Below are positions 1-27,007 of a stretch of DNA of 41,272 nucleotides, piece by piece. The stretch comes from an uncultured Mycoplasmatota bacterium (GTDB lineage Bacteria > Bacillota_I > Bacilli_A > RF39 > UBA660), in NCBI GenBank assembly GCA_948466315.1, contig CAOJZZ010000005.1, positions 1-41,272 on the forward strand. The letters are read 5' to 3'. Each line of letters begins with the position of its first letter. The stretch's first letter is position 1. The position numbers and the translations under genes were made by a program. Under the pieces are notes generated by a model. It was given only the letters and a program-made list of their open reading frames with translations, was not told where the DNA came from and searched no databases.

Positions 1-410
1 CTATAAACAACATTTCCACAAACTAATTTACCCTCTGTTGTACTATTACAAGCAACTCCATCTGGCGAAGTTGAAGTAATACTTGCTAAATTTGCATCAA
101 CATCTCCTTTGTTTTGCACTGTCAATAAATAATTACACTTATCTCCAGGTTTTGATAATTTAATTGCATCTACTGTAACAGAATTATCAGTAACTGTTGC
201 ATTACCACAAGTAGTCGTACTAGTACCTGTTGATACTCCAGGTACTGTTCCCTTTGCCAATTTTATATCCCAGTTAAATGCACTTTGAGTAACTGTTCCA
301 AATCTAACATTTAACGAAGTACTCAATGCCGCATACGCAAGCGAAACTCCTGTTACTGCTACCAATAATGCTAAAATTGATACATACATACTTTTTCTAT
401 CCTTATTCAT
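1..410 (-). CDS. Secreted four-cysteine paralog, array copy 1 (partial)
   Basis: The first visible member of a tandem family; its C-terminal end lies beyond the left edge of the window. The start is the ATG at 408-410, preceded by GAGGAAGTGATAAA, a good ribosome site. The protein begins with a short basic stretch (MNKDRK), one hydrophobic segment and an AYA|AL signal-peptidase-I-like site. The mature part opens with the family pattern LxxxFGxxTQxxxxWDI. All four family cysteines are present in the visible part (in TCGNA, DKCNY, VACN and LVCGN). It is closest to the next copy, sharing IKLSKPGDKC and TSPDGVAC. The function is unknown. A secreted, disulfide-stabilised beta-rich surface or fibre subunit of TasA/SipW-substrate type is a guess based on the N-terminal pattern. 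Confidence 0.75.
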   Translation of the reverse strand, partial: MNKDRKSMYVSILALLVAVTGVSLAYAALSTSLNVRFGTVTQSAFNWDIKLAKGTVPGVSTGTSTTTCGNATVTDNSVTVDAIKLSKPGDKCNYLLTVQNKGDVDANLASITSTSPDGVACNSTTEGKLVCGNVVY

Positions 411-447
411 TTTATCACTTCCTCAATATCATATTTTCTAATTATAA

Positions 448-1035
448 TTAATCTTGTCCATATACTAATGTAAATCCTGCTCCTATATGCGTCACCTCCT
501 CATTAGAAACGTTAGGTAATACTTCATACGATACCACTAAATAAAAATTTGATACCCCATTAATTCTTTCCACCTTTTGCTCCCTACTAGTTAGAAGACT
601 AGTACCTGCACTATCATTAGCCAAACTATAGACAACATTACCACAAACTAATTTACCCTCTTCCATCCTATTACAAGCAACTCCATCTGGTGAAGTAGCT
701 GTAATGCTTGTCAAGTTTGCATCAATATCCCCTTTATTTTGAACTTCTAAAGGATATGTACATTTATCTCCTGGTTTAGATAACTTAATTGAATCAATAG
801 TAGCCGAACTATCAGTAACTGTTGCATTACCACAAACAGTTGTACCAGTACCAGATGATACACCAGCTACTATTCCACTATTTAATTTTATATCCCAATT
901 AAAAGAACTCTGTGTAACTGTTCCAAATTTAATCTTCAAAGATGTGCTTAATGCTGCATATGCCATTGAAACTCCAACTACAGCAACAACTAATGATAAA
1001 AGCGAAACATACATTACTTTCCTATCTTTATTCAT
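448..1035 (-). CDS. Secreted four-cysteine paralog, array copy 2
   Basis: A protein of 195 aa starting at the ATG at 1033-1035 behind AAGGAGAAAAGT. An in-frame upstream ATG at 1074 would overlap the preceding gene and has no ribosome site, so it was not used. Residues 1-6 are basic, 8-24 hydrophobic, and the signal cleavage is predicted after AYA (about residue 27). Cysteines sit at about 68, 92, 121 and 131, in the motifs VCGNA, DKCTY, VACN and LVCGN. The C terminus ends in the family pattern FTLVYGQ followed by one residue. There is no lipobox, sorting motif or C-terminal membrane segment, so the mature protein is probably released or assembled outside the cell. Function unknown. Confidence 0.8.
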   Translation of the reverse strand: MNKDRKVMYVSLLSLVVAVVGVSMAYAALSTSLKIKFGTVTQSSFNWDIKLNSGIVAGVSSGTGTTVCGNATVTDSSATIDSIKLSKPGDKCTYPLEVQNKGDIDANLTSITATSPDGVACNRMEEGKLVCGNVVYSLANDSAGTSLLTSREQKVERINGVSNFYLVVSYEVLPNVSNEEVTHIGAGFTLVYGQD

Positions 1036-1060
1036 ACTTTTCTCCTTAATATTTCTATTT

Positions 1061-1645
1061 CTAGGCATGTACAAAATTTAAAACAAAACCTGCTCTAGAT
1101 TGATTAATAGGTACACTACTAACATCTACTCCAGTATAAGAAACAACCAAATATACTGTCTTTGTTTGATTTATTCCTACTATTTGACTATCATCTAGCG
1201 CTATCTTTCCATCAACATCCTGTGCCAATTTATAAGTTAAATTTCCACATACCATTTTTGATTCAACTGAAAAGTCACACGCCACTCCATTAGGTGTTAC
1301 TGGTGTAATAGATCCCAATCTAGCAACAATTCCACCAAAATTTTCTACAACTAAAGCATAAACACACCGATCATCTGGCTTTGACAAAGTAGTAGTAGAA
1401 ATAGTAACAGAATCCTTAGTAACCGCAGCATTACCACAACTTCTCCCCGTTGAACTAGTCCCAAAAGCTTCTCCAGCAACTGTACCATCTTGAAAACCAA
1501 TATCCCATGTCAACGGCTTTTGTGTTACTTTCCCAAATTTAACACTTATAGTTGCCCCAAGTGCTGCATATGCAATTGATAAACATGCTACTATTACTAC
1601 TAAAGTTAAAATTGAAATATACATATTTTTACGTTCTTTACTCAT
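1061..1645 (-). CDS. Secreted four-cysteine paralog, array copy 3
   Basis: A protein of 194 aa with an ATG start at 1643-1645 after GTTAGGAAGGAAAAA. It has the same architecture as its neighbours: MSKERK, a hydrophobic segment, AYA cleavage site, FGKVTQ, WDIGF and four cysteines (SCGNA, DRCVY, VACD, VCGN). The linker before the first cysteine has the form GTSSTGRSCGNA, shared in outline with copies 4 and 5 but not copies 1 and 2. The last residues (FVLNFVHA) depart from the usual YxQ ending. It reads in the same direction as the other copies, with a 25-bp gap to copy 2, so cotranscription is likely. Function unknown. Confidence 0.8.
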   Translation of the reverse strand: MSKERKNMYISILTLVVIVACLSIAYAALGATISVKFGKVTQKPLTWDIGFQDGTVAGEAFGTSSTGRSCGNAAVTKDSVTISTTTLSKPDDRCVYALVVENFGGIVARLGSITPVTPNGVACDFSVESKMVCGNLTYKLAQDVDGKIALDDSQIVGINQTKTVYLVVSYTGVDVSSVPINQSRAGFVLNFVHA

Positions 1646-1675
1646 TTTTTCCTTCCTAACTATTTTTACCTAAAA

Positions 1676-2260
1676 TTACGATTGTGCATAACTAAGTGTA
1701 AATGCAGCCCCTGACTGAGTTGTATTCGTAGCATTCAAAGAAGCACCAGTATATGAAACAACCAAATAAACAGGAAGCGAAGCGCCTATTGCTAATAACC
1801 TATTACTTGCCAAAATAGTGTTACCTGAGCTATCACTAGTCAATTTATAAGTTAAATTTCCACATACCATTGTTGCTCCATTAGATGTACTACATGCAGT
1901 ACTATTGGGATTTTTCGGTGTAATACTGCTTAAAGTTGCAGCAATAGTACCACTATTCTTAATCGTTAAGGGATAAGTGCATTTATCCTCTGGTTTTGAC
2001 AAAGAAGTTGCAGAAACTGTAACTGTAGTAGCTGTAATTGTCGCATCCCCACAAACTCTACCAGTTGCACTTGTTCCAGCGGCTGTTCCTACAACAGTAC
2101 TACCTTGAAATCCTACATTCCAAGTCAAGGCATTTTGGGTAATATCCCCAAACTGAATATTAAGAGTTGCACTAAGAGCCGCATATGCTAACGACAAACC
2201 ACCCACAATTACTACTAATGTTAAAATTAAAATATACATATTTTTTCTCTTATAATCCAC
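1676..2260 (-). CDS. Secreted four-cysteine paralog, array copy 4
   Basis: A protein of 194 aa that starts with GTG at 2258-2260; the ribosome site GAGGTGA lies seven bases upstream. The N terminus MDYKRKNMYI aligns with copy 3, followed by the hydrophobic segment and SLAYA cleavage site. The mature region carries FGDITQNALTWNVGFQ, then GRVCGDA, DKCTYP, TACS and MVCGNLTYKLTSDS around the four cysteines. It is clearly closest to copy 5, sharing TQNALTWNVGF and TSATGR, which suggests a recent duplication of this pair. It ends in FTLSYAQS. Confidence 0.8.
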   Translation of the reverse strand: MDYKRKNMYILILTLVVIVGGLSLAYAALSATLNIQFGDITQNALTWNVGFQGSTVVGTAAGTSATGRVCGDATITATTVTVSATSLSKPEDKCTYPLTIKNSGTIAATLSSITPKNPNSTACSTSNGATMVCGNLTYKLTSDSSGNTILASNRLLAIGASLPVYLVVSYTGASLNATNTTQSGAAFTLSYAQS

Positions 2261-2294
2261 CTTATCTTCACCTCACATAATCATAATATCATTA

Positions 2295-2885
2295 CTACGA
2301 TTGAGCATAACTAAGAACAAACTTTGCACCTGATTGAGTAACAGCTGAACTATTCAACCCAGCACCTGTATAAGAAGCCACTAAATAAACAGTAAGAGAG
2401 GCCCCCGCATTCAATGTTGTATTGGCATTTATTGCTGTAGCACCACCGCTATCACTTGTTAATTTATAAGTAATATTACCACATACCATTGTAGCACCAC
2501 TAGCAGTAGCACAAGTTGTACTAGTAGGTTTAGTTGGTGTTATAGAACTAAGTCTAGCTGCAATACCACCACTATTTCTTATAGTCAAAGTATAAGTACA
2601 TTTATCACCTGGCTTAGACAAAGTAGTAGCCGCTACACTAACAGTACTAGCAGTAATAGTGGCATTACCACAACTCCTACCAGTAGCGGAAGTTCCAGCA
2701 GCAGCTCCTGCAGCAGAGGTTCCAGTAAACCCAACATTCCATGTTAAAGCATTTTGGGTAATACCAGAAAAAGAAATATTTAAAGTTGCACTAAGAGCCG
2801 CATATGCTACCACGATTCCTATTATTAACACTGAAACTATACAAAGAGCTATATTTAATACTTTTCTATTCTTAATAAACATCAC
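2295..2885 (-). CDS. Secreted four-cysteine paralog, array copy 5
   Basis: A protein of up to 196 aa. The start is ambiguous: GTG (2883-2885) and ATG (2880-2882) both lie inside or directly against a very strong Shine-Dalgarno (AAGGGAGGTGAT). The best-spaced codon, about eight bases after GGAGG, is an ATT. Domain order is the same as in the other copies: hydrophobic segment, VAYA cleavage site, FSGITQNALTWNVGF, then cysteines in SCGNA, DKCTY, TTCA and MVCGN. The mature sequence is unusually rich in Ala, Ser, Thr and Gly. It ends in FVLSYAQS. The 34-bp gap to copy 4 is consistent with one transcript. Confidence 0.78.
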   Translation of the reverse strand: MMFIKNRKVLNIALCIVSVLIIGIVVAYAALSATLNISFSGITQNALTWNVGFTGTSAAGAAAGTSATGRSCGNATITASTVSVAATTLSKPGDKCTYTLTIRNSGGIAARLSSITPTKPTSTTCATASGATMVCGNITYKLTSDSGGATAINANTTLNAGASLTVYLVASYTGAGLNSSAVTQSGAKFVLSYAQS

Positions 2886-2909
2886 CTCCCTTAAATAAAA
2901 TACTAATTT

Positions 2910-3506
2910 TTAATGTTGTCCATAAACAATAGTAAAACCAAAACCTGATTGTGAAAAATCACTTGTTGAACTAGTAGTACCTGAATACTCAGCAGTTAAC
3001 ACCACATTTCTAGTAGTAGCAGTACTTCCACTCTTAGCAGCCAAAACATTACCAACAGCAGGCTGAATACTACTAGTAGCAGAATCGTATCTCAATTTAT
3101 AAGTAATATTACCGCATATCATTGTAGAACCACTAGCAGTACTACACGTTGTACTAGAAGGTTTCCTTGGTGTAATAGAAGTAATTGAGGCTCCAAGCGT
3201 ACCATTATTTCTTACTTGAAAAGTATAAGAACACTTATCTCCACTCTTGGTTAATTTAACTTTAATTCCAGAAATAGTAGTTTTAGTAGCGGTAGCACTT
3301 CCACAAGTAACATTCGCATTAGTTGTAACTCCAGCAATACTCCCAGTATTAAACCCAACATCCCAAGTTAAAGCGGATTGAGTCAAATTACCAAATTGAA
3401 TATTCAAAGTTGTACTAAGAGCTGCATAAGCAACAGTCAACCCAACAACAAAAGCAATCAAAATACCAATAGTTATAAATAATATATTATAATTTCTTCT
3501 TTTCAT
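2910..3506 (-). CDS. Secreted four-cysteine paralog, array copy 6
   Basis: A protein of 198 aa, the copy nearest the upstream end of the array. The ATG at 3504-3506 follows AAAGGAG with nine-base spacing. The N terminus MKRRNYNILF differs from the other copies, but the VAYA cleavage site, FGNLTQSALTWDVGF and the four cysteines (VTCGS, DKCSY, TTCS, MICGN) are retained. A Ser/Thr-rich insertion (about residues 150-180) makes it slightly longer than its neighbours. The C terminus is FTIVYGQH. No promoter could be fixed with confidence in the 69 bp between it and the truncated gene upstream. Confidence 0.8.
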   Translation of the reverse strand: MKRRNYNILFITIGILIAFVVGLTVAYAALSTTLNIQFGNLTQSALTWDVGFNTGSIAGVTTNANVTCGSATATKTTISGIKVKLTKSGDKCSYTFQVRNNGTLGASITSITPRKPSSTTCSTASGSTMICGNITYKLRYDSATSSIQPAVGNVLAAKSGSTATTRNVVLTAEYSGTTSSTSDFSQSGFGFTIVYGQH

Positions 3507-3575
3507 CCTTAACTGCTCCTTTATGATATACTACTAATAATATTATCCCAATATACTTAAGACACTATATACGGA

Positions 3576-3851
3576 TTACTGAATGTACCATTCCCCCCCA
3601 CTTATAACAATACCATGTATAAGAGAAATAGAAGGTCGAAGACCAAATGAAGCATCAGAATCTGAATTATCTACATAAGTTCTGTCAAAATAAAACATTC
3701 TAGCACAACCATAAGGACCACTACAACCATTTCCAGGAGTCATAATCCACCATTTTTGACCTCTAGACAAATACCCCAGCACAGAAAAACTAGCATTCAA
3801 AGCTGAATATCCTATACTAATAAAGGTAGAAAACATCAATAGTACCAACAA
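3576..3851 (-). pseudogene. Collapsed surface-protein gene: signal segment joined to a C-terminal DUF6273-like tail
   Basis: An open frame of 91 codons beginning near a TTG at 3849-3851, with no convincing ribosome site. The first 25 residues match the signal region of the four-cysteine family (hydrophobic segment, GYSALNASFSV). Immediately afterwards the sequence becomes WWIMTPGNG, FDRTYV and SFGLRPSISL plus HGIVISGG. I know this pattern as the C-terminal end of the DUF6273-type surface domain common in low-GC gut bacteria. The bulk of both parent proteins is missing and the join is in frame, so this looks like the product of an internal deletion. It could still be expressed as a small secreted peptide, but I judge it a remnant. 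Confidence 0.5.
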
Positions 3852-3892
3852 TAAAATAATATTTATGGTCTTATAATATTTTTTATAATTAG

Positions 3893-4348
3893 TAAAAAAA
3901 GAACATTTTGAGATGTTCTATATTGGCGTGTATCAATTTACTAAAATCAGTAAAAATTTCAAGAATAATTTATATAGATTTATTTTTTTCTATATTTAAT
4001 TAAATTTTCTCGTAAAAAACCTAAACTCAAATAGAAACATACCAATAAATTTATAACTTCTAAAAAACAGTTTTATTTATTCCCCAAAATCTAACAAGTT
4101 ACTAAATAATTATATAAAAAACACTTCAGATAATCCTAATAATACCCTCCCACTCTACTATAAATAATCATACTATAAAACTATATTTTAGTCAACCATT
4201 TTTGTTTTTGAGTTTCGGTTTTTTATGAGAATTTTAAATATAATTGTAGTGACTTTTAAAGTTTTATAAATTTTTTCAGAATTTTCCTAAAATCCCAATA
4301 TTTATCCATACCAATATAGAACATTCTCAAATGTTCTTTTTTTCTAAT
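3893..4348. repeat. Inverted-repeat-bounded non-coding unit (possible MITE or paired IS ends)
   Basis: The two ends are inverted copies of each other. At 3894-3935 the plus strand reads seven A, GAACATTTTGAGATGTTC, TATATTGG. At 4310-4347 the minus strand reads seven A, GAACATTTGAGAATGTTC, TATATTGG. The similarity continues more weakly inwards (ATTGGCGTGTATCA versus ATTGGTATGGATAA). Each end is also a self-complementary hairpin followed by a T-run pointing outwards, so each would work as a terminator. The roughly 370 bp between them has no open frame, only AT-rich sequence. The right end abuts the decayed transposase, so one end may be that element's terminus. No target duplication could be assigned. 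Confidence 0.5.
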
Positions 4349-4366
4349 GATTAAGTTAGAGAATAT

Positions 4367-5466
4367 CTAAAGTTTTAACTGTAGTTGTTTATATTTTTCA
4401 CGTTTCTCTATTTTTTGATATTCCTTGATACCTACACGCACATATTTTAGTATCTCACTAGTTCCCTTTGAAATTTGACTAAACCATACAAACACTTTTC
4501 TTCTTAATGATTTACTTCTTTCTAGTATTTTGATTGTTAGAAGCTTTTTATTCATATCTTCAATTAACATTCTCAAATATCCCATGTGAATCATTAACAT
4601 TAAGTTTAAATTATTCATCGCTTTTAATGTTCTTACTCTCATGTCTTAAAATTCATATTCTTACTTTTTACTTTTAAAATATTCTTCTACCATCCATCTA
4701 TAAAAATATGTGATACTGATATTTCTACTTTTTCATCCTCAAACCACAATTCTATTTTTACTTTTCCTTTTCTCTTTAATGCCTCTTGATATTCATTTTT
4801 TTCTTCCCTTTAAAGAGAAAATTTCTCTTATCATTCATTCTTATCACTTTTGTCTACATAACTTATGATTTTACTATCATCGCATCCTCTATCAAATACC
4901 ATATTACATTTTCTGTTTAATACGTTGATTACCATATCTATACTTTCCATAATATATTGATTCTTACTTACAAATCCTTCACTATATACACTAATTGGTT
5001 GTTTCTAATTTTTTCCTAATATTACTGCTTCACATATATAATACCCGTTTACCACTCTCTTATCTGGATCTGATGCCTCTATTATTTGGTCTAGGTCTTC
5101 AAACTTTTTTCCATATCTTTTTGATATATCACTATCATCAAATATGAATATTGCCTCATCAGGAAAATAATTCTTTACTTCATTTAAATAGTTTTCTTTC
5201 ATTAACCTAGTTTCTTCTTTATCTAAGGATTGTAGATTATCATACAGTCTTTCAATAGTATTTTTTAGTTTTACTCTTTCATCTAATGATTTTGATATTT
5301 CAGATATTAAACAACTCTTACTTTTAGATAATCCATATTTCATGTCACTTATAAAATTAGTTACCTTTTTATTTAATCCTTCTGACATTTTTTTAGAAAA
5401 ATTTAAAATTTCTCTTTTCATTTCATAACAATCCACAGTATAATTAATCAAGGAAATCACCTCCAT
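4367..5466 (-). pseudogene. Decayed IS4-like DDE transposase
   Basis: The N-terminal half is open from the ATG at 5464-5466 (RBS GGAGGTGA) to a stop at 5005. It includes FDDSDISKRYGKKFEDL and NGYYICEAV, which fit the first catalytic Asp region of IS4-superfamily DDE transposases. Continuing leftwards, recognisable pieces remain in the same or shifted frames: QPISVYS, GFVSKNQYIMESID, MVFDRGCDDSKI (second Asp region), RNFLFKGKK, then WMVEEYFKSKK and a C-terminal part ending at 4367. In-frame stops lie at 5005-5007 and near 4840, a shift follows, and part of the segment before the C-terminal piece appears deleted. The enzyme cannot be made intact. Confidence 0.75.
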
Positions 5467-5540
5467 ATTTTTTGTTTAGTTAAAATTTTCTAACAATTAA
5501 ATTTTACTAAACTTTGGAAGTTTTTTTCTTATTTTTTATC

Positions 5541-5579
5541 AAAAAAGTGAATCTGTGTATAACACATTTTCACTTTTTC
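5541..5579. repeat. Long hairpin upstream of the transposase remnant
   Basis: The arms AAAAAAGTGAA and TTCACTTTTT enclose a second stem TGTGT/ACACA, with only a small internal bulge, giving an almost continuous hairpin. It is followed by T-rich sequence on both strands, so it could terminate transcription from either side. It may instead be part of the right end of the insertion sequence. The rest of 5467-5653 shows no gene. Confidence 0.45.
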
Positions 5580-5653
5580 TTTTTTTTCAAATTTTACCAA
5601 AACTCAAATTTTTGTTCTTATAATAAAAAATATTTTATAACTAATCATAACAT

Positions 5654-5689
5654 AAAAAATATAAGCCCACTAAATAGCTTATATTTTTT
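5654..5689. terminator. Bidirectional rho-independent terminator
   Basis: A perfect 13-bp stem, AAAAAATATAAGC pairing with GCTTATATTTTTT around a ten-base loop. The stem base gives a U-run on either strand. It lies eight bases beyond the stop of the 95-aa gene and so ends the three-gene unknown operon on the minus strand. Confidence 0.75.
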
Positions 5690-5696
5690 ATTTATC

Positions 5697-5984
5697 TTAC
5701 AAAAAATTTATTGCACTAATATCTTCATTAATTAAAGAAACTAATACGCCTACATTATACTTATCAAATTGTTTTTTCAACTTAGAAATATCAATTGAAA
5801 ATACTTCTAATCGTCTAACTAATAATTCATCAATTACTTCAATTCCAATCTCCCTAAAATAGTTAATAACATCTCTTACATTATCACAATCCATAATAAA
5901 ATTATATATAACAGAATCATCATTACTATTAATAATACGATGAAGTACTAAATCGTTAAAACCCAATTCCTTTAAAAATTCCAT
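5697..5984 (-). CDS. Small helical protein of unknown function (operon gene 3)
   Basis: A protein of 95 aa whose ATG (5982-5984) overlaps the TAA of the gene before it as TAATG, with AAGGAGG nine bases upstream. An earlier in-frame ATG at 6008 lies inside the previous gene and was not used. The sequence begins MEFLKELGFNDLVLHRII and is predicted to be entirely helical. Two segments resemble each other: FLKELGFNDLVLHRII and YFREIGIEVIDELLVRRL. This spacing of a hydrophobic helix, G[FI] and a second helix recalls mTERF-type helical repeats, but the likeness is weak. The overlap with the large protein upstream implies coupled translation and perhaps a complex. There is no signal peptide. Confidence 0.7.
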   Translation of the reverse strand: MEFLKELGFNDLVLHRIINSNDDSVIYNFIMDCDNVRDVINYFREIGIEVIDELLVRRLEVFSIDISKLKKQFDKYNVGVLVSLINEDISAINFL

Positions 5985-7879
5985 TATGCCATTCCTCCTT
6001 GTAAACATCCCCTAATAATCATAGCTAATCTATCATAGTCCTCTTGATTAATAATAGTATGATATGTAACAGCAAACATAAAACTATCAATAGACGGAGC
6101 AATTCTATTTTTTAACAAAGTATCAAATACTCGCAAAACCTTCAATTTAGAAATACGAATACCAGAAAAATTATAAGCTAATGGTTCATTTTGATCAGAA
6201 TAACTATTAATAGCTTTAATATAATCATGTTCAAAAATAGAATCATCTATCTCAAAAGAAACTACATTTTTCATAATTGAATCGTATTCTACTTGATTAT
6301 CAAATACTGGACATATTGTATTAGTTACTTCCATTTTATTCAAATCAGTAATACCACAATAAGGAAGATACTTATATTTTTTACTAAAACGCGTAATTTC
6401 ACCCTTTAATTGTAATTTTACAATATGATAATCACTTACTTCTACAAAAGGACCAGCAGCAACCAACTTACCATCAGCATCAACCTGTACCCTAGAAGCT
6501 TGATAAATATTATAAAATAAAATATCTAAAGGATTAACATTCGAACGTAAATTACTAAGATTATCTCTCAAATAATAAATACCTAATGGATGAATTTCAA
6601 TAAATTGGTCAGCAATATCAGCAAAATTAAGTGCCATCAAAGCTGTCAACGCCGGTCTAACAACCGCATTTTTCTCCATTAAAGAAAAACCATACTTTTC
6701 AAATAAAGATAAATTATTTCTTAATAATTCATGTGATAGAACTAATAATTGCTTACATTTATCAAAAACAACTGAAATCATTAATCCTTTACTTTCTAAC
6801 AAAGCTATATTTTTAGAAAAATCATCTGCAGCACCCTTTATGAAACTTAAAAGATTATCATCGCCATAAGAAAAGCCTAAATCATGTTCACTATCACTAC
6901 CAACATAACTAAAAAACATTTCTACTTCTTTTTTCATATATATACTTTGCTTAATCAATGAGTTACTTATTTGTAATAAATCATCTGGTTGTAACCCTTT
7001 TTCCAACGCAAGCTTTGTATTATTATCAATAATTTCCTTACTAGAATTAACCAAAAGAGCAAATAAAATTTTTCCTTTAGAAACTTCATCAATTTTAGAA
7101 AAATTATTCTCACTAAGTGCCTGGAAAATAATTTCCATTCGAGATAACCGACCATATTTAAGAATATCATTTTGAACAGCCATATCTAATAATGAAAACT
7201 GATAACCATATTTTTCAAATAATTGTAAAACATCATTTTTCATTAAAACTTCAGAAGAATTAAATTCATCTATTCCTATATTTTTTAGTTGTCTTTCAAA
7301 AATTTCATGATTATATTTCATCAAATCAACTAAAATTCTTTGTTTTACTTTTTCTTCCACCTTGCGTTTTGTAAACAACAAATGTAAAGTACTACTATCC
7401 TTAATAATAGAAGTATTATTAGGATCAGTTAACATAGTAATTAAATCTACATATTTATTAGTAACATTAAGAACAATATCTCGTCTTTTCTGTAAAGAAG
7501 CCCTTTCTTCTTTTTGAATATTAATAACTTCATTAACCTTATTAAGAAATAAATCAAAGGCCTCTAACTCATCACTTTCCAATTCTACTGTTGTATTTTC
7601 CTCAACATTCATAGTAATTATTTCTTTAATTAAAGACATCTCATTGATCATCGTATCAATTGTTTCATCATCATCAAAAGTAAAAGAACGAATCAACTTT
7701 TCTATTTTTTGAAAATCAATAGAATCAATAGACTTTATATCACTAACTAAATGATTAACCAAATCCTCATTTTCTTGGACAGAAGAATCTAATTGATCAT
7801 CATGACCATACAAAAACTCCTGATTTTTATCAACTTGCTCTTTCAATAAATTTATTAAAGTATTTTGTTGCTCTAACAT
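5984..7879 (-). CDS. Large helical protein of unknown function (operon gene 2)
   Basis: A protein of 631 aa from the ATG at 7877-7879 (GGAGG eight bases upstream); the adjacent TTG at 7882 is a less likely start. I do not recognise the family. It has no signal peptide or membrane segment, so it is probably cytoplasmic. The first 150 residues are acidic and coiled-coil-like. From about residue 215 a loose repeat recurs: LFEKYGYQFSLLDMAV, LESKGLMISVVFDKC and LFEKYGFSLMEKNAVVRPAL, each a hydrophobic helix with a central Gly. The C-terminal third (QLKGEITRFSKKYKYLPYCG onward) may be a separate domain. It lies 12 bp after the preceding gene and overlaps the next start codon. Confidence 0.75.
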   Translation of the reverse strand: MLEQQNTLINLLKEQVDKNQEFLYGHDDQLDSSVQENEDLVNHLVSDIKSIDSIDFQKIEKLIRSFTFDDDETIDTMINEMSLIKEIITMNVEENTTVELESDELEAFDLFLNKVNEVINIQKEERASLQKRRDIVLNVTNKYVDLITMLTDPNNTSIIKDSSTLHLLFTKRKVEEKVKQRILVDLMKYNHEIFERQLKNIGIDEFNSSEVLMKNDVLQLFEKYGYQFSLLDMAVQNDILKYGRLSRMEIIFQALSENNFSKIDEVSKGKILFALLVNSSKEIIDNNTKLALEKGLQPDDLLQISNSLIKQSIYMKKEVEMFFSYVGSDSEHDLGFSYGDDNLLSFIKGAADDFSKNIALLESKGLMISVVFDKCKQLLVLSHELLRNNLSLFEKYGFSLMEKNAVVRPALTALMALNFADIADQFIEIHPLGIYYLRDNLSNLRSNVNPLDILFYNIYQASRVQVDADGKLVAAGPFVEVSDYHIVKLQLKGEITRFSKKYKYLPYCGITDLNKMEVTNTICPVFDNQVEYDSIMKNVVSFEIDDSIFEHDYIKAINSYSDQNEPLAYNFSGIRISKLKVLRVFDTLLKNRIAPSIDSFMFAVTYHTIINQEDYDRLAMIIRGCLQGGMA

Positions 7880-24815: not shown

Positions 24816-25113
24816 ATTATCACCCTATCTTGTTAAAAATATGGTAACATAACATTAAAAATATTACTATATATTTTTTTAATATTAAAAATACTTTACA
24901 TAAGAAAATAAAATTAATTATACTTAACAATAAAAATTTATATACACTATCATACATAAAAAATACTAATTATAAAACTTCCATTACCTCAAAAAGTATA
25001 TTTGATTATTTTTAAATATATCTTTTCAATACATACAAACTAAAAATAATAAATATATATATTGACAAACAAATACACATAAAATAAAATAAAAAGTCAA
25101 AAGGAGAGAAGTT
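24816..25113. other. Divergent AT-rich intergenic region
   Basis: About 300 bp between two divergent genes for surface proteins, very AT-rich. No open frame with a ribosome site and no RNA gene was seen. The only clear signal is the plus-strand promoter at its right end. Confidence 0.5.
25062..25090 (+). promoter_or_regulatory. Promoter of the thioredoxin-sortase pair
   Basis: A consensus -35 TTGACA and TAAAAT separated by exactly 17 bp, ending 23 bp before the start codon of the thioredoxin-like gene. It is the best housekeeping-type promoter in the window. Confidence 0.8.
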
Positions 25114-26142
25114 ATGAAAAAGAAAATATGTTTAATAGGACTATTACTATTAATAGCAACAATTACATTACCAATAACAACTAAAGCAAAGGATCTTGAC
25201 TTAACAATTTATACAGCTGAGACTTTACAAGAAACTTTAACTAAAGAAAACATAACAGGAGATTTTACAAATTACCAAGCAACAGATGACAAAGCTACGA
25301 TTTATGTTTTCAGACAAGATGGCTGCTTAAATTGTAAAAACTTCTATAATTTTGTAGCAAACACTTTATTAGTTAATCACGCTGATAAATTTAGAGTAAT
25401 AAGTTATGAAGTTAAAAACAACCAATTAAATAACAATCTAAGAATACAAGTTCAAGATTTTATGGGAGAAGAAGTAAACGTTACACCCTACATTATTATT
25501 GGAGAAAAAACATTTAGCGGACACATAGATGCTGCAAAACAAAAAGAAATAGAAGCTGCTATTCTTGCATTATATAATGATGCTAACAAATATGATGTAT
25601 TAAAAGACATGAAAGATAATAAAAAAGAATTTAGCGATGCAACTAACAAAATAATAGTAACAACATCAAAGGCATTAAACAAAAATAATAGTTTGAAAAC
25701 AATAAATACTAATCATCAAGATTTAACAATCGCTAACTTCAACTATATAACATCTTATGATATTAAAATAGTAGATGATAAAAATAATATAGTACCATCA
25801 AATACTGGAACTTTTACTATTAAGATTCCTGTAACACAAAAATTTGATATGTATAAGGTTGTTTCTTTAGATACAAATGGAACAACAACCGATATTAACA
25901 ATGTCTCATATAAAGATGGTTATATTATTTTTACAACAACCAATTTATTAGAATATGTAGTATATGGAAAAAACAATACATCAAATGATACTACAAATGA
26001 AACAGTTACTGAAATAAGTAATCAAATAAACGAAGAGAATCCAAACACATTAGATAATATACAGCTTTATGTATTAACATTAATACTTGGTAGTATTACT
26101 TTAGTAAGTAGTTCCATAATTTTAAAAAAGAAAATAAATTAA
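25114..26142 (+). CDS. Secreted thioredoxin-like protein with sortase sorting signal
   Basis: A protein of 342 aa starting behind AAAGGAGAGAAGTT. The N-terminal signal peptide ends near ITTKA (about residue 24). A thioredoxin-like domain follows (about 45-155): YVFRQDGCLNCKNFYNF holds a CxxC pair (Cys71, Cys74), and VTPYIIIGEKTFSG has the usual cis-Pro (Pro125). Residues 200-290 form a beta-rich domain. The C terminus is NPNTLDN (309-315), a hydrophobic segment and KKK, the layout of a sortase substrate with an NPxT-type signal. The next gene is a class B-like sortase. The protein probably acts as a wall-anchored thiol oxidoreductase; possible clients are the cysteine-containing secreted proteins encoded elsewhere in the window. 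Confidence 0.85.
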   Translation: MKKKICLIGLLLLIATITLPITTKAKDLDLTIYTAETLQETLTKENITGDFTNYQATDDKATIYVFRQDGCLNCKNFYNFVANTLLVNHADKFRVISYEVKNNQLNNNLRIQVQDFMGEEVNVTPYIIIGEKTFSGHIDAAKQKEIEAAILALYNDANKYDVLKDMKDNKKEFSDATNKIIVTTSKALNKNNSLKTINTNHQDLTIANFNYITSYDIKIVDDKNNIVPSNTGTFTIKIPVTQKFDMYKVVSLDTNGTTTDINNVSYKDGYIIFTTTNLLEYVVYGKNNTSNDTTNETVTEISNQINEENPNTLDNIQLYVLTLILGSITLVSSSIILKKKIN

Positions 26143-26143
26143 C

Positions 26144-26176
26144 AAAAAGTTCTATGTATAAAACATGGAACTTTTT
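26144..26176 (+). terminator. Attenuator-like hairpin between substrate and sortase genes
   Basis: AAAAAGTTCTATG pairs with CATGGAACTTTTT (one U-G wobble) around a seven-base loop, and the stem ends in five T. It starts two bases after the stop codon of the thioredoxin-like gene, and 12 bases separate it from the sortase start. No promoter is visible in between, so partial read-through would set the amount of sortase relative to substrate. Confidence 0.65.
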
Positions 26177-26188
26177 AAGGAGTATACA

Positions 26189-27007
26189 ATGAGAAAAAGA
26201 AAAATTAAAAAAAGACTAGAAAAGAGAAAAAAACATCTTTTCTTAAAGTTTACAATTATAATATCCTCACTAAGTATCATTTATAGTGGCATCTACATTT
26301 TTCTTTGGACAAAAGACAATTATAATACTAATAAAGAACTAATTGATATTAAAAATAACACTCCTATAACAAAAATACATTCAGAGAAAGAAAAAGAAAA
26401 ATCATTTAATCCCTATAAAGATTTTCCTACAATAAACTATTTAGAAGTCGATTTTTCAAACTTAATAGAAAAAAATCCAGAAACAGTAGCCTGGATAGTA
26501 GTTAATAATACCAATATAAATTATCCAGTAGTTCAACATAATGATAATAAATACTACTTAAATCATAGCTTCAATAAGCAAAAAAATGATGCTGGATGGA
26601 TCTTTATGGACTATCGAAATAATATAAAAAATATGGAAAAAAACACTATAATTTATGCTCATGGAAGACAAGATGGTTCTATGTTTGGCAATTTAAAAAA
26701 TACTTTGAAAGATAAATGGTATAAGAATACTAACAACCATATAATAAACTTATCAACCAAACACGAAAATATGTTATGGCAAATATTTAGTATCTATAAA
26801 ATTAAAACTACTAATGACTACATTCAGACAGACTTTCAAGAAGAAACATCTTTTAATAACTTTTTAACTACAATAACAAATCGTAGTATTTATAATTTTA
26901 AAACTCCCCCTAAGAAAACTGATAATATTTTAACCCTATCTACTTGCTATAACGAAAAAGAAAAAGTAGTAATTCATGCAAAACTAATAAAAACTAAACA
27001 AAGATAA
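26189..27007 (+). CDS. Class B-like sortase
   Basis: A protein of 272 aa. The start is the ATG at 26189, since AAGGAG lies six bases upstream; an in-frame ATG at 26165 lies within the hairpin and lacks a ribosome site. Residues 1-20 are strongly basic, followed by a membrane segment (about 22-42). The sortase core shows NINYPVVQHNDNKYYLNHSF, IIYAHGRQDGSMFGNL (catalytic His158) and LTLSTCYNEKEKVVIHAKL (catalytic Cys253). The position of the conserved Arg after the Cys appears to be Lys259. It joins sorted proteins to the wall; the neighbour with NPNTLDN is its likely substrate. Confidence 0.88.
   Translation: MRKRKIKKRLEKRKKHLFLKFTIIISSLSIIYSGIYIFLWTKDNYNTNKELIDIKNNTPITKIHSEKEKEKSFNPYKDFPTINYLEVDFSNLIEKNPETVAWIVVNNTNINYPVVQHNDNKYYLNHSFNKQKNDAGWIFMDYRNNIKNMEKNTIIYAHGRQDGSMFGNLKNTLKDKWYKNTNNHIINLSTKHENMLWQIFSIYKIKTTNDYIQTDFQEETSFNNFLTTITNRSIYNFKTPPKKTDNILTLSTCYNEKEKVVIHAKLIKTKQR

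Follow-up and report, generated by a model that had tools for sequence, protein, structure and literature searches.

We identified a two-gene unit whose probable role (we put it at roughly three chances in four, judging from the sequence) is to place a thioredoxin-fold oxidoreductase on the cell wall of an uncultured Mycoplasmatota bacterium. The unit occupies positions 25062-27007 of the window (the whole 41,272-nucleotide stretch of DNA that was analysed); it runs from the first base of the -35 box (25062) to the last base of the sortase stop codon (27007), the span given in an earlier note on this DNA. It consists of a gene for a thioredoxin-like protein, which is predicted to be covalently attached to the cell wall by the adjoining sortase, and the gene for that sortase. 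The 46-nt gap between the two is filled by a hairpin, absent from the earlier note, whose T run leads straight into the AAGGAG of the sortase gene. A dedicated class B sortase beside a single substrate is already known (AbpA-SrtB), as are surface thioredoxins in the form of lipoproteins; the parts that are unexpected to a specialist are the conserved hairpin and the interchange of Lys and Arg at the position of the catalytic Arg. The features of the unit are as follows.

25062-25090, plus strand: promoter-like site TTGACA-17-TAAAAT, which would serve both genes (11/12 match to the consensus)
25102-25106, plus strand: Shine-Dalgarno AGGAG of the thioredoxin-like gene (sequence reading)
25114-26142, plus strand: predicted wall-anchored thioredoxin-like protein, 342 aa (sequence, alignment and AlphaFold2 model)
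25114-25188, plus strand: signal peptide of about 25 aa, no exact cleavage site predicted (hydrophobic N-terminal stretch after KKK, by inspection)
25285-25581, plus strand: thioredoxin-fold domain, residues 58-156 (model and structural neighbours)
25324-25335, plus strand: CLNC active-site motif, residues 71-74 (C-x-N-C invariant in a seven-row alignment)
25618-25977, plus strand: beta-sandwich stalk, residues 169-288, with a ZU5/GAIN-like arrangement (Z 8.9 at best, near the common-arrangement level)
26038-26058, plus strand: sorting signal NPNTLDN, predicted to be cut between Thr and Leu, which makes the Asp P2' (N, P, T and D invariant in the seven-row alignment)
26059-26139, plus strand: membrane helix and KKKIN tail (sequence; model helix 315-341)
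26144-26176, plus strand: hairpin AGTTCTATGT-loop-ACATAGAACTTTTT ending in TTTTT, read as a partial terminator or attenuator (-14.8 kcal/mol, z -5.1)
26177-26182, plus strand: Shine-Dalgarno AAGGAG of the sortase gene, directly after the T run (sequence reading)
26189-27007, plus strand: class B sortase, 272 aa, with His158, Cys253, Lys259 at the catalytic-Arg position and Arg160 in H-x-R (TIGR03064; alignment to 2oqw and 1qx6)

The earlier note had read the first gene as encoding a signal peptide, a CxxC thioredoxin fold and an NPNTLDN-hydrophobic-KKK end, and the sequence and an AlphaFold2 model (mean pLDDT 71.3, from 7 sequences) agree on this. Residues 61-155 of the model run beta-alpha-beta-alpha-beta-beta-alpha, which is the thioredoxin order; the CxxC opens alpha-1 and the Pro of a TP motif precedes beta-3, as in a thioredoxin-like fold, in a model of modest confidence. 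The score against Pfam PF13098 (Thioredoxin_2) is 16.2 bits (E 0.014) against a gathering cut-off of 27, and the domain is therefore filed here as a thioredoxin-like fold and not as a member of PF13098; the Pfam models for thioredoxins score below their cut-offs. VIA-align returned thioredoxins, TrxP and DsbE as neighbours within residues 28-158 (Z 7.0-7.8) and ankyrin ZU5 domains over residues 170-293 (up to Z 8.9). These values lie near the common-arrangement level; it is the CxxC and TP motifs that carry the thioredoxin call. Foldseek gave no match to the model at E <= 0.001 (the best, at E 4e-3, was to the stalk), and a sequence search of the PDB gave no match up to E 1. A low-confidence linker joins the stalk to NPNTLDN. 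With an export signal (recognized by inspection), a C-terminal motif, a hydrophobic stretch and a basic tail, the protein has the parts of a sortase-anchored wall protein; by its sequence it would be exported and held in the membrane by the C-terminal helix and KKK tail.

A single promoter would read both genes. The same promoter scan found 12 promoter-like sites in the window and 20.8 in shuffled sequence, so that an 11/12 match to the consensus alone proves little. However, among 12 regions upstream of this gene and its homologues (the window included), 11 have TTGACA with a 17-nt spacer, located at -50 to -58, and the earlier claim of one consensus promoter for both genes holds.

That the second gene encodes a class B-like sortase, as previously noted, is borne out by its NCBIfam TIGR03064 score (169.1 bits; cut-off, 153.75). 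A longer ORF for this gene, from 26165, was set aside; the start at 26189 is in register with the Shine-Dalgarno sequence. His158 and Cys253 (the Cys of TLSTC) align with the corresponding residues of 2oqw and 1qx6. However, where the catalytic Arg is expected, positions 26963-26965 specify Lys259, a basic residue, yet strictly not Arg. Among 84 sortase rows, which include relatives from the best 80 of at least 557, this position is Lys in 59, Arg in 24 and Asp in 1; within the nine-member branch that contains the window's sortase it is Lys in four and Arg in five, and at least 11 Lys/Arg changes are needed on the sortase tree. Searching the literature for sortases in which Lys naturally replaces Arg turned up nothing relevant. 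The interchange bears on the mechanism of sortases, given that the R243A substitution leaves Bacillus anthracis SrtB without activity (PMC11987632).

Arg two residues past the catalytic His (H-x-R) is present in 77 of the 84 rows. One possibility was that Arg160 stands in for the lost catalytic Arg; this was rejected, as H-x-R accompanies both Lys (54 rows) and Arg (23 rows) at that position, and we therefore tie Arg160 to the P2' Asp instead. In B. anthracis SrtB, a basic pocket after H140, which may include R141, K143 and K152, recognizes the P2' Asp (PMC11987632), and our alignment puts Arg160 at the position of M142 and Lys170 at that of K152; on this ground a basic pocket with Arg160 and Lys170 probably reads the P2' Asp in the window's sortase. 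The two enzymes thus resemble each other in fold, in the His and Cys, in the NPxT signal and in a basic pocket after the catalytic His for the P2' Asp, but the window's sortase has Lys for R243, and Arg at His+2 instead of R141/K143. The sorting signals found in the 80 sortase loci (the best 80 of at least 557) have Asp at P2' in 44 of 47 cases; the remaining three comprise a pair of LPxTGG pilins from L187, a locus that has a pilus-type sortase of its own, and a false positive resembling FtsW. From the co-conservation of the pair and the B. anthracis SrtB study (PMC11987632), we infer that the adjoining class B sortase would cut NPNT|LDN and join the Thr to peptidoglycan, the P2' Asp being read through the pocket that includes Arg160 and Lys170.

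How closely does this sortase keep to this substrate? In a family set of 291 genomes, among which the window's own is G000 (1.5 Mb, 79 contigs, 71% complete), the full-length wall-anchored protein occurs in six (G000, G010, G075, G101, G176 and G185); the thioredoxin-like domain alone is found in many others, mostly with a plain membrane tail. A class B sortase lies directly downstream of the thioredoxin-like gene in G000, G101, G176 and G075. In G185 the wall thioredoxin gene has no adjacent sortase, and in G010 it is followed by a DNA ligase gene and no sortase, while the congeneric G176 has the pair. Scanning genome contigs with the sortase alignment yielded at least 557 confirmed relatives, and six of the best 80, which were kept as loci, have a thioredoxin-like gene directly upstream (L113-L117 and L119, with the signals NPKTFDG, NPKTFDA, NPQTFDK, NPNTLDG, NPQTLDD and NPKTLDT); these six were retrieved by sortase similarity alone. 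In a sortase tree of 97 rows (two odd rows, L179_3 and L187_6, were left out), a single branch with support of 100/99 unites the window's sortase with those of the six loci, G101 and G176 and has no other member, and all nine sortases of this branch adjoin a thioredoxin-like gene. Because the gene pair, often with the same hairpin, recurs in distant relatives, it looks like a real unit. The G075 sortase falls in a separate branch, keeps the catalytic Arg and is without H-x-R; G075 formed its thioredoxin-sortase pair independently, with a different class B sortase. The wall thioredoxins of G075 and G185 end in NNAQTS, not PxTxD. A search of 376 genomes drawn from the whole class returned no further wall-anchored cases at E <= 1e-25.

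It could be argued that the sortase is instead the lineage's general enzyme for every PxTxD protein and that its adjacency to the thioredoxin gene is incidental. Class B sortases are present in 244 of the 291 family genomes, and in sister branches members of the same subfamily have a variety of PxTxD proteins as neighbours, with several together in L127 and in L184. We nonetheless consider a general enzyme unlikely, given that nine of nine sortases of the branch sit beside a thioredoxin-like protein, that a second sortase of the same type in G000 has a PxTxDN partner of its own, and that G000 has no other C-terminal NPxTxD. The last two points come from a survey of the window's genome, which has seven sortase-family genes. 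The NPxTxD pattern occurs at five sites there, and only the window's is at a C-terminus; PxTxDN likewise occurs at five sites, two of which are, in context, sorting signals, each near its own class B sortase. The second of these signals, APNTYDN, ends a 230-aa protein of a pilus locus on contig C28 (L039, G000:C28:1-14000, at 354-6660), which also encodes a pair of LPxTGG-type proteins, of which one contains a pilin backbone domain, and has a separate sortase (the strongest Pfam match of the seven) in addition to the class B sortase near the APNTYDN protein. The C28 class B sortase clusters with those of L164 and L187 (100/96); the arrangement recurs in L187, there with a PPSTYDS protein. At 71% completeness, further PxTxDN or NPxTxD wall proteins may be missing from G000. 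The many unrelated proteins with the same ending that would have counted against the earlier proposal of a dedicated sortase were thus not found in this genome. That proposal stands as far as conservation of the partner as a pair is concerned; it is weakened by the varied PxTxD proteins beside the subfamily elsewhere, by the lack of an adjacent sortase in G010 and G185, and by the second such sortase in G000, which could also act. A sortase that tracks one wall thioredoxin through evolution marks the wall position of that protein as important.

In all seven rows of the family alignment the two cysteines, the intervening Asn and the TP motif are unchanged, which argues for thiol chemistry; the wall-held CxNC domain may exchange thiols and disulfides with wall or exported proteins. 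A related thioredoxin-like domain is fused to a polytopic membrane domain in P0001 (406 aa; contig C57, L044 549-1766, minus strand), which contains FNPC and ACSAGLP. We take these two to be DsbD/CcdA-like motifs, and the fusion is possibly a DsbD/CcdA-like electron importer, although a Pfam search did not report DsbD for it at E <= 0.01. Full-length relatives of the fusion are found in G000, G010, G075 and G176, that is, in four of the six genomes with the wall-anchored protein, which makes us lean towards a reducing chain ending in the wall; G101 and G185, with no full-length fusion at E <= 1e-5, do not fit. Reduction, fed by the membrane TrxL/DsbD-like fusion, thus seems to us somewhat likelier than oxidation or isomerisation, a preference that we hold tentatively.

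Alternatively, the protein may serve in the wall as an adhesin or a structural component, with a thioredoxin-fold head that acts in binding and has no redox activity. The stalk does resemble other wall proteins: an EF0750-type model matches five of the seven members at E <= 0.1 (lowest E-value, 1.6e-6), and a 935-aa wall protein in L186 has the stalk in common with them. The invariance of the active-site residues and TP motif in seven of seven members, despite the other members' identity of 41-45% to the window's protein, makes this reading quite improbable, and we prefer a thiol oxidoreductase. With this pair one could test cleanly whether the thiol chemistry of Gram-positive cells extends from membrane lipoproteins into the wall. 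One suggestion made for such an enzyme, that it is a disulfide-handling station for neighbouring cysteine-containing secreted proteins (the four-cysteine proteins at 448-3506 being the supposed clients), gained no support from the genome comparison, and co-occurrence with the four-cysteine array was rejected. This array consists of six members of one family of exported four-cysteine proteins, encoded in tandem at 3-3506 of the window; of the 291 genomes, only G000, G231, G078 and G008 have close relatives of it (E < 1e-30). At E <= 1e-5, relatives of the array are present in one (G000) of the six genomes with the wall-anchored protein, compared with 93 of 291 overall.

The intergenic hairpin is shared by eight of the nine branch members. 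In the ninth, L113, there is an unrelated hairpin with a T run, for which reason L113 was left out of the hairpin alignment; no hairpin is present in the G075 pair, which is unrelated. All eight rows have the same left arm, AGTTCTATGT, and the arms are 96% identical over all row pairs (539/560), whereas the two genes reach 56% (882/1567) and 42% (559/1329) at their fourfold-degenerate sites. Where the paired arms differ between rows, G-U pairs remain, and the outermost pairs are not kept; no two-sided compensatory change occurs in the eight-row alignment, so covariation gives the hairpin no support. A search pattern for the hairpin matched 15 of 203 loci, all 15 matches covering the thioredoxin-sortase gap; among the 291 genomes it matched three, always in that gap (a reversed control pattern matched one genome), with one place in G000. 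A lineage-wide terminator sequence was rejected on the strength of these last two counts. Rfam has no family at the hairpin (two weak matches elsewhere fell below gathering scores), the terminator scan of the window did not list it, and nothing was found when viral contigs were scanned with a longer form. At other loci where a PxTxD gene adjoins a sortase gene of the same subfamily (from the best 80 of at least 557 loci), the intervening gap contains a hairpin in six of six inspected cases and a T run in five of six, all of different sequence; a seventh inspected gap, the 174 nt before the C28 sortase, follows another sortase gene and is outside the six.

Based on the hairpin, its T run, a gap too small to hold another promoter and the like arrangement of further substrate-sortase pairs, we infer that the hairpin is a partial terminator: most transcripts would end at it, or be trimmed to it, after the first gene, giving much substrate and little sortase. 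Similarly, in Clostridia, internal terminators after the genes for ABC substrate-binding proteins lower transcription of the scarce partner (PMC9045158). The likeness is in a stem-loop after the abundant partner which lowers the scarce one; the window's hairpin differs in lying between a substrate and its sortase and in that the stem sequence itself is conserved. The substrate-hairpin-sortase layout suggests a simple rule for substrate-to-sortase ratios. A partial terminator accounts for this layout but not for the constancy of the stem sequence. One speculative possibility, to which we give only an outside chance, is that the hairpin is a new locus-specific regulatory RNA, the stem sequence of which is read by something (protein, small RNA, redox state or wall state), and which sets the amount of sortase per wall thioredoxin, alongside a large class B subfamily that uses Lys and Arg interchangeably as the third catalytic residue. 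If so, the stem sequence itself, and not only the fold, would be held across genera. A DNA operator (a repressor palindrome) in place of an RNA terminator would suit palindromic arms that are nearer to invariant than a terminator needs, but is very improbable, since departures within the ten-base arms retain an RNA G-U pair and break DNA symmetry, and since unrelated hairpins stand both in L113 (with a T run) and in other substrate-sortase gaps.

Several known systems resemble parts of this one. In oral streptococci, AbpA-SrtB likewise comprises one class B sortase gene directly downstream of a single substrate gene, the two being co-transcribed and conserved as a pair; what sets AbpA apart is that it is an amylase-binding adhesin, ends in an LPKTS-AVK tail and lacks a membrane segment (PMC4974636 and PMC12650345). 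The window's sortase scores 70 bits against the 200 of NF040525, the model for AbpA-specific SrtB named for the LPKTx-AVK signal. The pneumococcal Etrx1 and Etrx2 are, like the window's protein, extracytoplasmic thioredoxin-fold proteins of a Gram-positive surface, but they are membrane-held lipoproteins linked to MsrAB2 and CcdA, whereas the window's protein has a sortase-type anchor; the reducing chain to the wall that we propose would resemble the pneumococcal CcdA-Etrx-MsrAB2 chains (PMC3914529). There is no Cys of a lipobox at the end of the signal peptide of the window's protein, which has a sorting signal instead, and the neighbours at the locus are not CcdA or MsrAB; two of them encode a deaminase and a small membrane protein, and the third is methyltransferase-like by sequence reading. 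We found no sortase-anchored thioredoxin paired with its sortase in the open-access literature, nor any description of covalently wall-anchored thioredoxins as a class, most subscription journals being outside that search.

Other surface loci came to light in the course of this analysis. In G075 and G185, a surface protein of 1485-1604 aa is encoded upstream of the wall thioredoxin (L111 7613-12070 and L112 7857-12671); it presumably resembles a glycan-binding NPCBM protein. In the window's own genome, the class B sortase of the C28 pilus locus (L039) is an unusual possession for such a locus. Inside what we take to be a Tad/Flp pilus cluster, with CpaB-, CpaF- and TadB-like genes, lies a divergent class B-like sortase (L043, G000:C2:40000-53000, at 5942-6763) that lacks the Arg at its usual position. 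Three more G000 sortases (L040 4949-7127, L041 5826-7683 and L042 4525-6497) each lie beside a surface protein, and these proteins end in VPDTNTK, SPDTGMS or VPDTKTT, endings that make up another sorting dialect within this one cell.
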